A stretch of 64,000 nucleotides of DNA from an uncultured Phycisphaerae bacterium (GTDB taxonomy: Bacteria > Planctomycetota > Phycisphaerae > UBA1845 > Fen-1342): the NCBI GenBank assembly GCA_937928595.1, contig CALGJV010000009.1:62001-126000 (forward strand), given 5' to 3'. Numbering within the stretch: the stretch's first letter is position 1; each line of letters begins with the position of its first letter. Shown here in pieces: positions 22,060 through 55,153 of this stretch. A model generated the notes under the pieces. The model did no database searches. It had not been told where the DNA came from and worked only from the letters and a program-made list of their open reading frames with translations. The position numbers and the translations under genes are program-made.

Positions 22060-22140
22060 CTAAAAGATGATGCGCAGGTTCCAGCCGAGGATCCCGCCGA
22101 TGATCAGGGCGGGCAGCCACGCGATGATCCAGTTGAACAT
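22060..22140 (-). CDS. 26-residue single-span membrane microprotein
   Basis: A 27-codon frame, too short for usual gene callers. The product begins MFNWIIAWLPALIIGG, continues with a further hydrophobic stretch and ends with one Arg (NLRIIF). Almost all of it would form a single transmembrane helix. Support: GGGAG lies six bases before the ATG, a possible promoter with a 17-bp spacer sits upstream, and a perfect hairpin follows the stop. M-F at positions 1-2 and W-L at 8-9 are shared with the two microproteins at 52.9 and 53.2 kb. It lies between the KefB-type gene (same strand, downstream) and glnS (divergent). Function unknown; such peptides often regulate a membrane partner, and the antiporter is an obvious candidate by position only. 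Confidence 0.6.
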   Translation of the reverse strand: MFNWIIAWLPALIIGGILGWNLRIIF

Positions 22141-22244: not shown

Positions 22245-22273
22245 AGCATAGGCCGTAAGTCTCGGCCCGACAA
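22245..22273 (-). promoter_or_regulatory. Possible promoter of the 22.1-kb microprotein gene
   Basis: On the minus strand TTGTCG is followed after exactly 17 bases by TATGCT, each four of six to the sigma-70 type consensus. The leader would be about 100 bases. It faces away from the glnS promoter in the same gap. Confidence 0.4.
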
Positions 22274-51695: not shown

Positions 51696-52715
51696 TCAGC
51701 CGTGGCCGCCCGGTGCCGCGCCGGCGCCCCCGCTCTCTGCGACCGCCCGCTCCGCCTTCCGCGGCTCGCGCTCCGTCGGCCGCACGATGTAGATGGGCCG
51801 CTGCTTGACCTCCTCGTACACCCGGCCGACGTACTCACCGAGGATCCACAGCACCAGCAGGTTCAGGCCGCCGAGGATCAGCACCGTCGCAAGAATGGAG
51901 CTCCAACCCCGCTCCACGACATCGGGAAAGAACAGCCGTGCCCCGACCACGTAGAGCAGGTACAGCGCCGCCGCCCCCGACACCACGCCGCCCACCAGCC
52001 CCGCCGCCCGCAGCGGCCACGACGAGAACGAGAAGATCGCGTCGCCCGCCAACCGCAGCATCGCCCGCCAGGAGTACTTCGACCGTCCCGCGTAGCGCGG
52101 CTCGGCGTCGTAGGGCACCTCGCTGTACGGGAAGCCGATCCACTGCACGAGCCCGCGGTTGAACCGGCAGCGCTCGCCGCACGCCAGGAACGCCGTCAGG
52201 GCCGCCCGCGAGAGCAGCCGGTAATCGGCCGCCCCGGGCGTCACGTGCAGCCGCGTCAGCGCCGACAGCAGCCGGTAGAAGCCGCGGGAGCTCGTGCGCT
52301 TGAGCAGGTTGTCGTCCGCCGGCTCCCGCCGAATCGCCTGCACGACGTCGTCGCCCGCCTGCCAGCGCTGCACCAGTCGCGGAATCAGCTCCGGCGGGTG
52401 CTGAAGGTCGCCGTCCAGCGTGATCACGGCCGCGCCGCGGGCGTACGCGAGCCCGGCCACCAGGGCCGCCTGGTGCCCGAAATTCCGCGAGAGCCGCAAC
52501 AGGCGAATGCGCGGATCCGCCGCGGCCAAGGCGGCGATGTGGTCGGCCGTGCCGTCGCGGCTGCCGTCGTCCACGTACAGGACTTCGTAGGCTCGCCCCA
52601 CCTGAGCCAGCACCGGCCGCAGGCGGGCCAGCAGCGGGTCGACGTTTTCCCGCTCGTTGAACACGGGGATGACGATGGAGAGCTCCGGACTGTCCGACGG
52701 CACGGCGCGCGACAT
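51696..52715 (-). CDS. GtrB/DPM1-like glycosyltransferase family 2 membrane protein
   Basis: 339 residues. The N-terminal GT-A domain has LSIVIPVFNERENVDPLL, VLYVDDGSRDGTADHI, LSRNFGHQAALVAGL and AVITLDGDLQHPPELI (DxD-like), which fit dolichol/undecaprenyl-phosphate sugar transferases. Near the C-terminus two transmembrane helices (AAGLVGGVVSGAAALYLLYVV, ILATVLILGGLNLLVLWIL) precede a cytoplasmic tail GEYVGRVYEEVKQRPIY. Such enzymes load a sugar onto undecaprenyl phosphate for decoration of LPS O-antigen, teichoic acid-like polymers or lipid A. The start at 52715 is set by TATGAT seven bases upstream; no ribosome-binding site. In-frame ATG 52727 would lie inside that box. Confidence 0.88.
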   Translation of the reverse strand: MSRAVPSDSPELSIVIPVFNERENVDPLLARLRPVLAQVGRAYEVLYVDDGSRDGTADHIAALAAADPRIRLLRLSRNFGHQAALVAGLAYARGAAVITLDGDLQHPPELIPRLVQRWQAGDDVVQAIRREPADDNLLKRTSSRGFYRLLSALTRLHVTPGAADYRLLSRAALTAFLACGERCRFNRGLVQWIGFPYSEVPYDAEPRYAGRSKYSWRAMLRLAGDAIFSFSSWPLRAAGLVGGVVSGAAALYLLYVVGARLFFPDVVERGWSSILATVLILGGLNLLVLWILGEYVGRVYEEVKQRPIYIVRPTEREPRKAERAVAESGGAGAAPGGHG

Positions 52716-52722
52716 GCCGGCG

Positions 52723-52728
52723 ATCATA
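52723..52728 (-). promoter_or_regulatory. -10-like hexamer of a leaderless promoter (GT2 gene)
   Basis: TATGAT on the minus strand, then seven bases (cgccggc), then the ATG at 52715. Confidence 0.5.
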
Positions 52729-52787: not shown

Positions 52788-52816
52788 TTGACGGGAGCCC
52801 TCCCCGTCCCGAGAAT
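52788..52816 (+). promoter_or_regulatory. Possible promoter of the first 52.9-kb microprotein gene
   Basis: TTGACG, exactly 17 bases, GAGAAT. The leader would be about 72 bases and contains the 16-bp element that is repeated before the second microprotein gene. Confidence 0.4.
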
Positions 52817-52848
52817 GCTGAGCGCTGGGTTTCGTCGGACCCGTCGGC

Positions 52849-52864
52849 GCGGCGGGGCGGAACC
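52849..52864 (+). repeat. Duplicated leader element, copy 1
   Basis: GCGGCGGGGCGGAACC, 30 bases before the ATG at 52895. It is matched at 15 of 16 positions by 53155-53170, which lies 32 bases before the second microprotein gene. The shared position and spacing support duplication of gene plus leader. Confidence 0.5.
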
Positions 52865-52894
52865 CCGAGTGGACGCAAACGTTGGGAGTCCAAA

Positions 52895-52978
52895 ATGTTC
52901 AGCGGATTGCTTCCGTGGCTGCTGATCGGCGGTCTCGCCCTGTTCCTGTTCTTCTTCCTGTTCGGGAACCGCGTGTAA
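52895..52978 (+). CDS. 27-residue single-span membrane microprotein (tandem copy 1)
   Basis: A 28-codon frame. The product starts MFSGLLPWLLIGGLALF, goes on with a Phe/Leu-rich stretch and ends FGNRV. It would form one transmembrane helix with a short, slightly basic tail. Translation is supported by GGGAG five bases before the ATG. It shares M-F, W8-L9, a Gly in the first third and an ALxLFxFL core with the second copy 224 bases downstream, and M-F plus W8-L9 with the microprotein at 22.1 kb. A terminator hairpin (53027-53066) follows. Function unknown. Neighbours are the divergent GT2 gene and, further on, metG. I infer a small membrane regulator or a stress-type peptide; nothing in sequence decides it. 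Confidence 0.68.
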   Translation: MFSGLLPWLLIGGLALFLFFFLFGNRV

Positions 52979-53026
52979 CATGGCACACGCCGTGCCGGTG
53001 GCCTGAATGGGCGACCGGAGGTACGG

Positions 53027-53069
53027 ACGCGTCGGTACGGCGCCTTGGGCGCCGCGTCCGACGCGTTTC
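53027..53069 (+). terminator. Two-part hairpin terminator between the microprotein genes
   Basis: Outer stem ACGCGTCGG / CCGACGCGT (9 bp) and inner stem CGGCGCC / GGCGCCG (7 bp) with loop TTG, separated by a small internal loop, then TTTCTGTTG. It lies 48 bases after the first microprotein stop and should end that message, so the second gene needs its own promoter or read-through. Confidence 0.65.
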
Positions 53070-53154
53070 TGTTGCGCTGCGCGGGGTGAGGCAAGCTTGA
53101 CGCCGGCGGCCGGCGACTCGACATCCCCCGCCGGTTCTTGTCATGCCCGCCACT

Positions 53155-53170
53155 GCGGCGGGGCGGAGCC
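53155..53170 (+). repeat. Duplicated leader element, copy 2
   Basis: GCGGCGGGGCGGAGCC, differing at one position from copy 1 at 52849-52864, and at almost the same distance from the next ATG. Confidence 0.5.
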
Positions 53171-53202
53171 GCGCGCCAACACACCCGTCTCAGGAGTCGC
53201 GC

Positions 53203-53286
53203 ATGTTCGGTGGCTGGTTCACGTGGCTGATCTTCGGTGCGATCGCCCTCCTCCTGTTCCTGTTCCTCAGCGGCGGTCTGGACTAG
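53203..53286 (+). CDS. 27-residue single-span membrane microprotein (tandem copy 2)
   Basis: A 28-codon frame with AGGAG six bases before the ATG, the most standard ribosome-binding site of the three microprotein genes. The product starts MFGGWFTWLIFGAIALL and ends SGGLD; the middle is a continuous hydrophobic helix. It has the same length as copy 1 and the shared pattern M-F-x-G-x-x-x-W-L-x-x-G-x-x-A-L. The C-terminus is acidic instead of basic, so the two copies may differ in topology or partner. TTGACG at 53097 could be a -35 element, but no good -10 follows. A GC-rich hairpin-like stretch follows the stop and metG begins 181 bases later. Confidence 0.68.
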   Translation: MFGGWFTWLIFGAIALLLFLFLSGGLD

Positions 53287-53408
53287 CCAAGCCATGCTGC
53301 GCCGGCCGACGCGCCGGGCGGCGCACACACCGAGCGCGTCGATCCAGCGCCCCCCGGGCATCGTGGTCGACGCGTCTCGCGTTGTACGCCGCCCGGTGCG
53401 CGGGTGCG

Positions 53409-53467: not shown

Positions 53468-55153
53468 ATGGCCCAGCGCACCCTGGTCACGGCTGCCCTG
53501 CCCTACTCGAACAACCGGCTCCACGTCGGCCACGTCGCCGGCGCGTACCTGCCGGCCGACACGTACGTCCGCTACCTGCGGGCCTGCGGCCGCGAGGCGG
53601 CGTTCATCTGCGGCAGCGACGACAACGGCGTGGCGATCGAGATCTCGGCCCTCCAGGAGCAGAGCACGCCCGCGCAGATCGCCGGGCACTACCACGACTG
53701 CCAGGCGCGCGACTTCGCCGGGCTGCGCATCGAGTTCGACGTCTACGGCGGCACGCACCACCCGGACTACGTTGAGCTGCACGAGCGTTTCAGCCAGGAC
53801 TTCTTCCGCCGCATCCACGCCGGAGGCTACTTCACCAAGCGGCGGACGCGGCAGCTCTACGACCCCCAGGCCGGGCGCTTCCTCCCGGACCGCTTCGTCC
53901 GCGGCGTCTGCCACCACTGCGGCTTCGAACGGGCCAGCGGCGACCAGTGCGACCAGTGCACGCAGATGATCGACCCGCTGCTCCTGAAGAACCCCGTCAG
54001 CGCCATCACCGGCCGGCCGGCCGAGGTCCGCGAGACGACGCACTGGTACCTCCGCCTCGGCGCGTTCGAGGAGCCGCTGCGGGCCTGGCTCGAGAGCAAG
54101 CAGGGTCAGTGGCGGCCCACCGTGCTCAACTTCGCGCTGGGGCAGATCAAGCAGGGGCTGCCCGAGCGCTCCATGACCCGCGACATCACGTGGGGCGTGC
54201 CGGTGCCGCTGGACGACCCCGACGCGGCCGGCAAGGTCCTCTACGTGTGGTTCGACGCCCCCATCGGCTACCTCTCGTTCACGGCCGCCTGGTGCGCGCA
54301 GCAGGGCCGCGGCACGGACGCGTACCGGGCGTGGTGGAGCGATCCGGCGACGGCCATCGTGCACTTCATCGGCGAGGACAACACCGTCTTTCACGCGCTG
54401 ACCTGGCCGGCGATGCTCATGGCCGAGCAGCAGTACCAGCTCCCGACGCAGGTCGTGGCGAACAACTTCATGAACCTCCGGCTGGGCGGCGAGATCCGGA
54501 AGATCAGCAAGAGCTCGACGCCCGCGGATGCGCCCGTCTGGGTGGAGGAGTACCTCAAGCGCGGTCTCGACCCCGACGCGCTGCGGTATTACCTGACGAC
54601 GCAGGCCCCCGAGGCCGCCCGCACCACCTTCGACCCCGAGGAATTCATCGCCCGGAACAACGGCGAGCTCGTCGCCGCCCTCGGCAACTTCGTCAACCGG
54701 TCGCTGACGTTCGCAGCGCGCTATTTCGACGGCCGCAAGCCCGACGCCGCCGCGGCCACCGAGGCCGATCGCGCGCTGCTGGCCCGCGGTACCGCGGCGC
54801 TGGCCGCCGCCGGCCGCTGCCTGGACGAGTTCCGGTTCCGGGCGGGCCTCGAGGAGGTCATGGGGTTCGCCCGGGCGTGCAACGAGTACTTCAGCGCGCG
54901 GGCGCCGTGGGCATCCCGCAAGGACAACCCGGCCGACTGCGCCGCCGCCATCGCGACGTGCGTGGAGGCTTGCCGGCTGCTGGCCATCGGCATGGGCCCG
55001 TATCTGCCCGGCGCAGCCCGCCGTCTGGCGAACATGCTGGGCGCGGACGAGCGACTGCTCCGCTGGCAGGTGCCCGAGCCGCTGCCCGTCGGCCACCGCC
55101 TCGGTCCGCCCGCGATCCTCTTCGCCAAGCTCGAACCCGGTGCCCTGGGGTGA
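53468..55153 (+). CDS. metG: Methionine--tRNA ligase
   Basis: 561 residues, class I synthetase for tRNA-Met. LVTAALPYSNNRLHVGHVAGAYLPADTYVRY has the HIGH motif as HVGH near residue 18-21, and RKISKSSTPAD is the KMSKS loop. A zinc knuckle in the connective-peptide domain reads CHHCGFERASGDQCDQC (two CxxC), as in the E. coli-type enzyme. The helical anticodon domain follows (ALGNFVNRSLTFAARYFDG). The C-terminal tRNA-binding OB domain found in longer enzymes is missing. GGAG lies before the start. A lipoprotein gene follows five bases after the stop, so they are one transcript. Confidence 0.95.
   Translation: MAQRTLVTAALPYSNNRLHVGHVAGAYLPADTYVRYLRACGREAAFICGSDDNGVAIEISALQEQSTPAQIAGHYHDCQARDFAGLRIEFDVYGGTHHPDYVELHERFSQDFFRRIHAGGYFTKRRTRQLYDPQAGRFLPDRFVRGVCHHCGFERASGDQCDQCTQMIDPLLLKNPVSAITGRPAEVRETTHWYLRLGAFEEPLRAWLESKQGQWRPTVLNFALGQIKQGLPERSMTRDITWGVPVPLDDPDAAGKVLYVWFDAPIGYLSFTAAWCAQQGRGTDAYRAWWSDPATAIVHFIGEDNTVFHALTWPAMLMAEQQYQLPTQVVANNFMNLRLGGEIRKISKSSTPADAPVWVEEYLKRGLDPDALRYYLTTQAPEAARTTFDPEEFIARNNGELVAALGNFVNRSLTFAARYFDGRKPDAAAATEADRALLARGTAALAAAGRCLDEFRFRAGLEEVMGFARACNEYFSARAPWASRKDNPADCAAAIATCVEACRLLAIGMGPYLPGAARRLANMLGADERLLRWQVPEPLPVGHRLGPPAILFAKLEPGALG

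Follow-up and report, generated by a model that had tools for sequence, protein, structure and literature searches.

KdpF, CydX, MgtS, and AcrZ are proteins of about 30-50 aa with one membrane helix that serve as accessory helices. The microproteins described here resemble them in size and in having one membrane helix, but differ in possessing their own conserved RNA leader and in lacking both a single conserved partner gene and any match in Pfam or NCBIfam. The leader itself resembles the cis-regulatory leader RNAs of Rfam, in that both lie in the 5' UTR and have a covarying stem near the Shine-Dalgarno site, although it matches no Rfam family. The enterobacterial type I toxin-antitoxin systems ZorO/OrzO, Ldr/Rdl, and Ibs/Sib are also similar: their hydrophobic proteins are tiny (29 and 35 aa and shorter), have a single helix, and are encoded in tandem, and the mRNAs of ZorO and Ldr carry a long structured 5' UTR. 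ZorO came to light in a search for small hydrophobic proteins duplicated in tandem, and the fold of its 5' UTR is repressive (PMC8309996; PMC4147584). Unlike these three systems, the present family has no conserved antisense promoter or flanking complementary RNA, its Shine-Dalgarno sites are not sequestered, one genus carries an array behind a single leader, and inheritance appears vertical at one locus.

Two tandem units between a glycosyltransferase gene and metG

The window, by which we mean the whole 64,000-nucleotide stretch of DNA that was analyzed, contains two 28-codon frames on the forward strand (52895-52978 and 53203-53286) that a preliminary description, made from the sequence alone, had taken for tandem membrane microprotein genes with a repeated leader. 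That reading was borne out, the decisive evidence being comparative: the frames are real genes, each part of a promoter-leader-microprotein-terminator unit that is kept in at least 14 genera and belongs to one uncultured planctomycete (Phycisphaerae) family. Their two products, each a single hydrophobic helix of 27 aa (MFSGLLPWLLIGGLALFLFFFLFGNRV and MFGGWFTWLIFGAIALLLFLFLSGGLD), are alike at 13 of 27 positions (48% identity), and the second also resembles MFGGWIELLFWGAIAAVIIFILTGQAAA of a related genome, G009. The pair is situated between a divergent gene for a GT2 family glycosyltransferase (51696..52727, reverse strand; Pfam Glycos_transf_2, E 7.5e-34) and metG, encoding methionyl-tRNA synthetase (53468..55153, forward strand; profile match), which provided a syntenic anchor. 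When the 64-kb window was screened for frames that start with ATG, encode 22-65 aa, and have a Shine-Dalgarno-like site, these two were the only ones among 29 whose peak hydropathy exceeded 2.3, which argues that they did not arise by chance.

All parts of both units lie on the forward strand. The promoter of unit 1, TTGACG-N17-GAGAAT (52788..52816), was read from the sequence, and its place matches that in 14 of 15 units. It is followed by a leader RNA hairpin (52827..52865), identified by its conserved fold, by covariation, and by a covariance-model match over 1-112 (E 9.6e-11). The outer stem, P1, pairs 52827-52834 with 52858-52865; a 5' bulge then leads to the inner stem, P2 (52840-52846 with 52850-52856), which is closed by a GCG loop, and CGAGTGG lies directly 3' of the hairpin (52866-52872). 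The ribosome-binding sites that had been proposed are indeed present in the sequence, as GGGAG (52884..52888) for microprotein 1 and AGGAG (53192..53196) for microprotein 2, and so is the hairpin with a T run between the genes, an intrinsic terminator after microprotein 1 (ACGCGTCGG...CCGACGCGT followed by TTTCTGTT, about 53027..53073). Unit 2 has the promoter TTGACG-N17-GACATC (53097..53125) and a leader hairpin at 53132..53171 (covariance-model E 2.3e-6), with P1 at 53132-53138/53165-53171 and P2 at 53146-53151/53157-53162. Downstream of it, a long inverted repeat (53310..53400) with 25-nt arms that are 80% alike may form a 3' hairpin; its T run is not clear. The preliminary description had pointed to two 16-bp words, GCGGCGGGGCGGAACC (52849-52864) and GCGGCGGGGCGGAGCC (53155-53170), which do agree at 15 of 16 positions and do lie 30 and 32 bases 5' of the ATGs. 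It missed that this word forms the 3' half of an RNA hairpin supported by covariation, and likewise that each unit has a promoter and that arrays hold one to four genes.

Conservation of the unit across one Phycisphaerae family

Loci from 20 relatives were fetched using metG. At the corresponding place 5' of this gene, G002 has two tandem 27-aa hydrophobic frames (MWSWFLNLLPWLIGIAIVVFLFNTLTT and a copy that differs from it by one amino acid) and G001 a single 55-aa frame, and the DNA 5' of the window, G001, and G002 frames has a promoter and a GC-rich hairpin in common. A DNA pattern built from these loci gave four real matches, plus one within a long accA-like frame of G008, and led to a further member in G030, where the micro-ORF is divergent to a GT2 homolog. 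Five units aligned from the -35 box to the ATG consist of TTGAC, 17 bases, a -10 box like NANNAT, and the leader. The unit in general comprises a sigma-70 promoter (TTGACG-N17-NANNAT), located at -106 to -114 from the ATG in 14 of 15 units, a leader of ~72 nt, a Shine-Dalgarno site, and the microprotein frame.

A covariance model of the five leaders (R1), in which information from the ORF was limited to the ATG, was then run on 27 genomes of the family. At E<=0.01 it recovered nine new loci in nine further genomes, each spanning TTGAC to ATG and each continuing into a frame of 32-62 aa with one hydrophobic helix. The tenth match (E 0.013) lacks such a frame, so this threshold is near noise, and four real matches (G022, G023, G027, and G033b) lay just above it. 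With both stems included in a second model (R2), the best match reached E<=3e-8 in 16 of the 27 genomes (14 genera), values that are not independent because R2 was trained on those 16, whereas the R1 values are independent for the 12 genomes outside its training set; G024 matched R2 at 4e-4. Each strong R2 unit is followed by a single-span membrane protein of 27-62 aa starting from the ATG of the model. Weaker members raise the count to about 20 genomes. Loci linked to GT2 added G008 (one frame, leader E 0.0055 in a 116-kb search), G009 (a weak leader and four consecutive frames of 24-28 aa), and G012 (one frame with promoter and hairpin, leader match absent). The array of G009 recurs in G025 at 98% identity, too close for selection analysis. 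Most assemblies are drafts, so the absences in G004, G005, G011, G021, G029, and G031 may be gaps.

Elsewhere in the order and class, the sole convincing R2 match is in G017, of another family (f6; E 0.026), where the leader is followed by MDSLWSWIWGIAIFGAIAFGLWWVWTTFFTA; among the weak matches outside the family, which also include G142 and G241, the four inspected (G018, G038, G068, and G074) came without a microprotein. A GTDB-wide pattern scan returned 59 matches, six of which have the unit, all of them Planctomycetota genomes in the sample, plus G017, which the scan filter dropped because it has no GGAG-like site. The same type of scan on viral contigs gave one match, without a micro-ORF, and a protein-profile search recovered only its own training members, its other matches being helices of larger proteins. 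The named records behind unit members are Phycisphaerae or Planctomycetota. The leader-like sequence of G074 (locus L082, another family; E 0.016), which has GTCGGCGCGGCGG and is followed by a longer protein of secreted type, may be a chance match.

The usual surroundings are a gene for a SAM methyltransferase, a divergent GT2 gene, and metG; most genomes keep at least one of these and none is constant. GT2 is the divergent neighbor in ten genomes (the window, G003, G008, G009, G010, G012, G026, G028, G030, and G033), and the unit is also 5' of metG in G001, G002, G022, G023, and G028. The methyltransferase was recognized by profile PF10672 in G006, G007, and G032 and by similarity of the translated sequence in G001, G002, G022, G023, G028, and G033, while the units of G034, G024, and G017 adjoin unrelated genes. 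We take the common surroundings to mean that the unit was inherited vertically from an ancestor of the family and that rearrangements followed. Dependence of the unit on GT2 or metG was also considered and is ruled out by genomes in which one of them is not nearby.

Arrays hold one to four frames each, and in several of them the second genes have no leader. Terminator-like hairpins 3' of the ORF also occur in G001, G007, G010, G022, G023, G028, and G034. The G009 array (locus L095, 2626-3210) places four different hydrophobic frames behind one promoter and its weak leader match, the frames being separated by hairpins whose T runs are not clear. In G030 (L041), a 52-aa microprotein is followed by a 45-aa hydrophobic, Trp-rich frame starting MQFNMTAGSW, and a 27-aa frame, MSAELFWAFVTGIPGLIVWTIWRFFRR, lies between that frame and GT2. 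A weak leader match (E 0.15) in contig C103 of G001 (L076) precedes MRFSRLKASLLALVSGGVCLQVVSCFDVVTAVSSALTAGGVLYLVRRVID, a frame of 50 aa that may be a second locus of this genome.

Leader RNA and microproteins

The leader fold is possible in nearly all members: P1, a 5' bulge of ~5 nt, P2 (CCCGUCG/CGGCGGG), and a short loop that is usually GCG, with a conserved CGAGUGG segment between hairpin and Shine-Dalgarno site. Covariation was tested on a MAFFT alignment that had not been fitted to the structure. In this alignment 83% of cells pair, and eight of the ten P1 pairs have changes on both sides. The covariation score was 0.342, compared with 0.195 for shuffled alignments, a test that relatedness inflates, and at most 0.160 for slid versions, in which relatedness is kept but over which the structure is favored, having been drawn from the tested sequences themselves. 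With compensatory changes 5' of one type of gene, the element has, at the level of sequence, the general mark of a structured cis-regulatory leader. None of the 16 members' leaders matched Rfam 15 even at E<=10; the only two Rfam matches in the 16 loci lie outside the leader. The leader is better conserved than the peptides: G022 and G023 agree completely over the ~61 nt of leader that precede the ATG but differ at 12 of 87 positions in the ORF (Fisher p 0.0015).

The peptides form two loose groups, one short and aromatic (24-32 aa; the window, G002, G009, G010, and G028) and one longer, in which an N-terminal stretch is present and the end often resembles GD or RD (G001, G026, G030, G032, G033, and G034). 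The motif M-F-x5-W-L, offered earlier as a shared pattern, is not kept in the wider family, of which the leader is the conserved part. The diverged roles hinted at earlier from the charge of the C-termini found no support either; these ends vary freely. Purifying selection, the check suggested for the frames, is strong in one close pair. The two G002 copies differ by eight synonymous changes and one non-synonymous change (dS 0.645, dN 0.016; Fisher p 1e-5), which indicates that selection acts on the protein and that the frame is coding in at least this lineage; the G022/G023 peptides are only weakly constrained (dN 0.139, dS 0.201). No peptide matched Pfam, NCBIfam, PADLOC, or PHROGs above the curated cut-off; the best of the weak matches linked G026 to TrbC of Pfam (E 4e-4, short of its cut-off) and one member to a PHROG with no assigned function (E 0.005). 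The suspicion that the family is unannotated thus held for every family library searched.

We tentatively suggest, at less than even odds, that these leaders are a new class of structured RNA controlling fast-evolving arrays of single-helix microproteins, confined to one Phycisphaerae family or perhaps its order and unrelated to known toxin-antitoxin or subunit families. Here the RNA leader serves to locate genes of 24-62 codons whose products are too short and divergent to be used as queries, and a covarying RNA element absent from Rfam is tied to microproteins in at least 14 genera. The family makes it possible to test whether tiny membrane proteins of planctomycetes are controlled post-transcriptionally; a toxic or subunit role of the peptides, if borne out, would make it a clearly non-enterobacterial example for either field.

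Function of the unit and competing readings

The comparisons establish the anatomy of the unit, its conservation, and the structure of its RNA; the microproteins are most likely small inner-membrane proteins whose mRNA would be controlled through the cis-acting hairpin. The reading we favor, to which we give a probability of about 0.5, is that of a vertically inherited, family-specific transcription unit, tandem in the window, that makes single-span inner-membrane microproteins, its hairpin docking a trans-acting factor and its peptides serving as accessory helices. A sigma-70 promoter whose -35 box is close to consensus would give a short transcript, whose ~72-nt leader would fold into the bulged hairpin (P1, ~5-nt 5' bulge, GC-rich P2, GCG loop) ahead of CGAGUGG and the Shine-Dalgarno site; the microprotein would be translated and transcription would stop at the terminator hairpin. 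A short, well-translated mRNA is suggested by the strong promoter, the terminators after many units, and the good Shine-Dalgarno sites. The conserved length of the bulge and the CGAGUGG before the Shine-Dalgarno site are most easily read as the binding site of a trans-acting factor, most likely a protein, for which the hairpin would be a cis-acting dock setting translation or stability of the mRNA. Signal-peptide-like N-termini, recognized by eye in G026 and G027, and Arg/Lys residues C-terminal to the helix in several peptides fit N-out/C-in insertion, and the peptides may function as accessory helices in the membrane, either singly or with the one to four paralogs assembled together. A specific partner-binding role is not evident because the peptide sequences are so divergent. 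The leader-less second genes, the lack of a visible cis switch, and the weak constraint in G022/G023 count against this reading.

By size, tandem layout, and structured leader, its strongest rival is a type I toxin-antitoxin-like system, in which the peptides would depolarize the membrane and an antisense RNA would silence the structured mRNA, as in Ldr/Rdl, Ibs/Sib, TisB/IstR, and ZorO/OrzO. We consider this unlikely, even though many members do encode a single hydrophobic helix of 24-40 aa, often in tandem, and their high divergence fits a loose need for hydrophobicity. No cis-antisense RNA gene was apparent at the 15 loci examined, where the antisense sigma-70 promoter score was 4.93 against 4.96 in shuffles, compared with 9.0 for the sense promoter at its fixed place. 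No antitoxin RNA was apparent in the flanks, as the longest complementary runs within 600 bp (7-13 nt) were those expected from shuffles. The missing antisense promoter and flanking complementarity weigh against such a system, for which only 60 bp are available between the GT2 start and the -35 box. Moreover, the Shine-Dalgarno sites are not sequestered, four frames follow one recognizable leader in G009, and the orthologous position across the family is unlike that of patchy toxin loci. An antitoxin RNA may be encoded at a distance, in trans.

There is a low probability that the RNA, as a small regulatory and perhaps dual-function molecule, is the principal product and the microprotein a secondary passenger. 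The leader's covariation and its better conservation than the peptides', and the short transcript predicted from its own promoter and terminator, would fit; however, a hydrophobic frame stands at the same place after every strong leader, the G002 peptides are under strong purifying selection, and arrays include frames without a leader.

A metabolite-sensing riboswitch controlling the microproteins seems slightly less probable again. Conserved sequence in and after P2 and a structured stem 5' of the Shine-Dalgarno site could suggest one, but no member matches Rfam, no metabolic gene is common downstream, and an effect on Shine-Dalgarno accessibility is not conserved, the unpaired probability of the site being 0.48 compared with 0.46 for shuffled leaders (p 0.26). 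A pseudoknot between the bulge and the Shine-Dalgarno site was considered as well, CUCC/GGAG being striking in several members, and was rejected since matched pairs did no better than permuted ones (p 0.77). With the Shine-Dalgarno site neither hidden by the leader nor paired with the bulge, a simple cis switch is unlikely.

Dolichol-phosphate mannose synthase has small accessory subunits. That the microproteins are likewise subunits of the GT2 enzyme, or otherwise tied to a neighboring gene, is very improbable despite its adjoining the unit in ten genomes including the window, as strict co-occurrence with the GT2 gene was not found: G002, G032, and G034 keep the unit without a GT2 match at E<=1e-60, the best match is on another contig or far away in G001, G006, G007, G022, G023, G024, and G027, and G011 and G031 have a close GT2 gene without a micro-ORF beside it.

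Returning to the window, a third hydrophobic micro-ORF, MFNWIIAWLPALIIGGILGWNLRIIF (22060-22140, reverse strand), with its own Shine-Dalgarno site, is probably the third member that the preliminary description had counted as a relative, a claim that fell, as it has no leader match and no convincing relatives among the 27 family genomes. A promoter-like TTGTCG-N17-TATGCT lies near 22272, a terminator-like hairpin is also present, and the micro-ORF is flanked by a glnS-like gene and a KefB-like antiporter gene (names assigned by eye).
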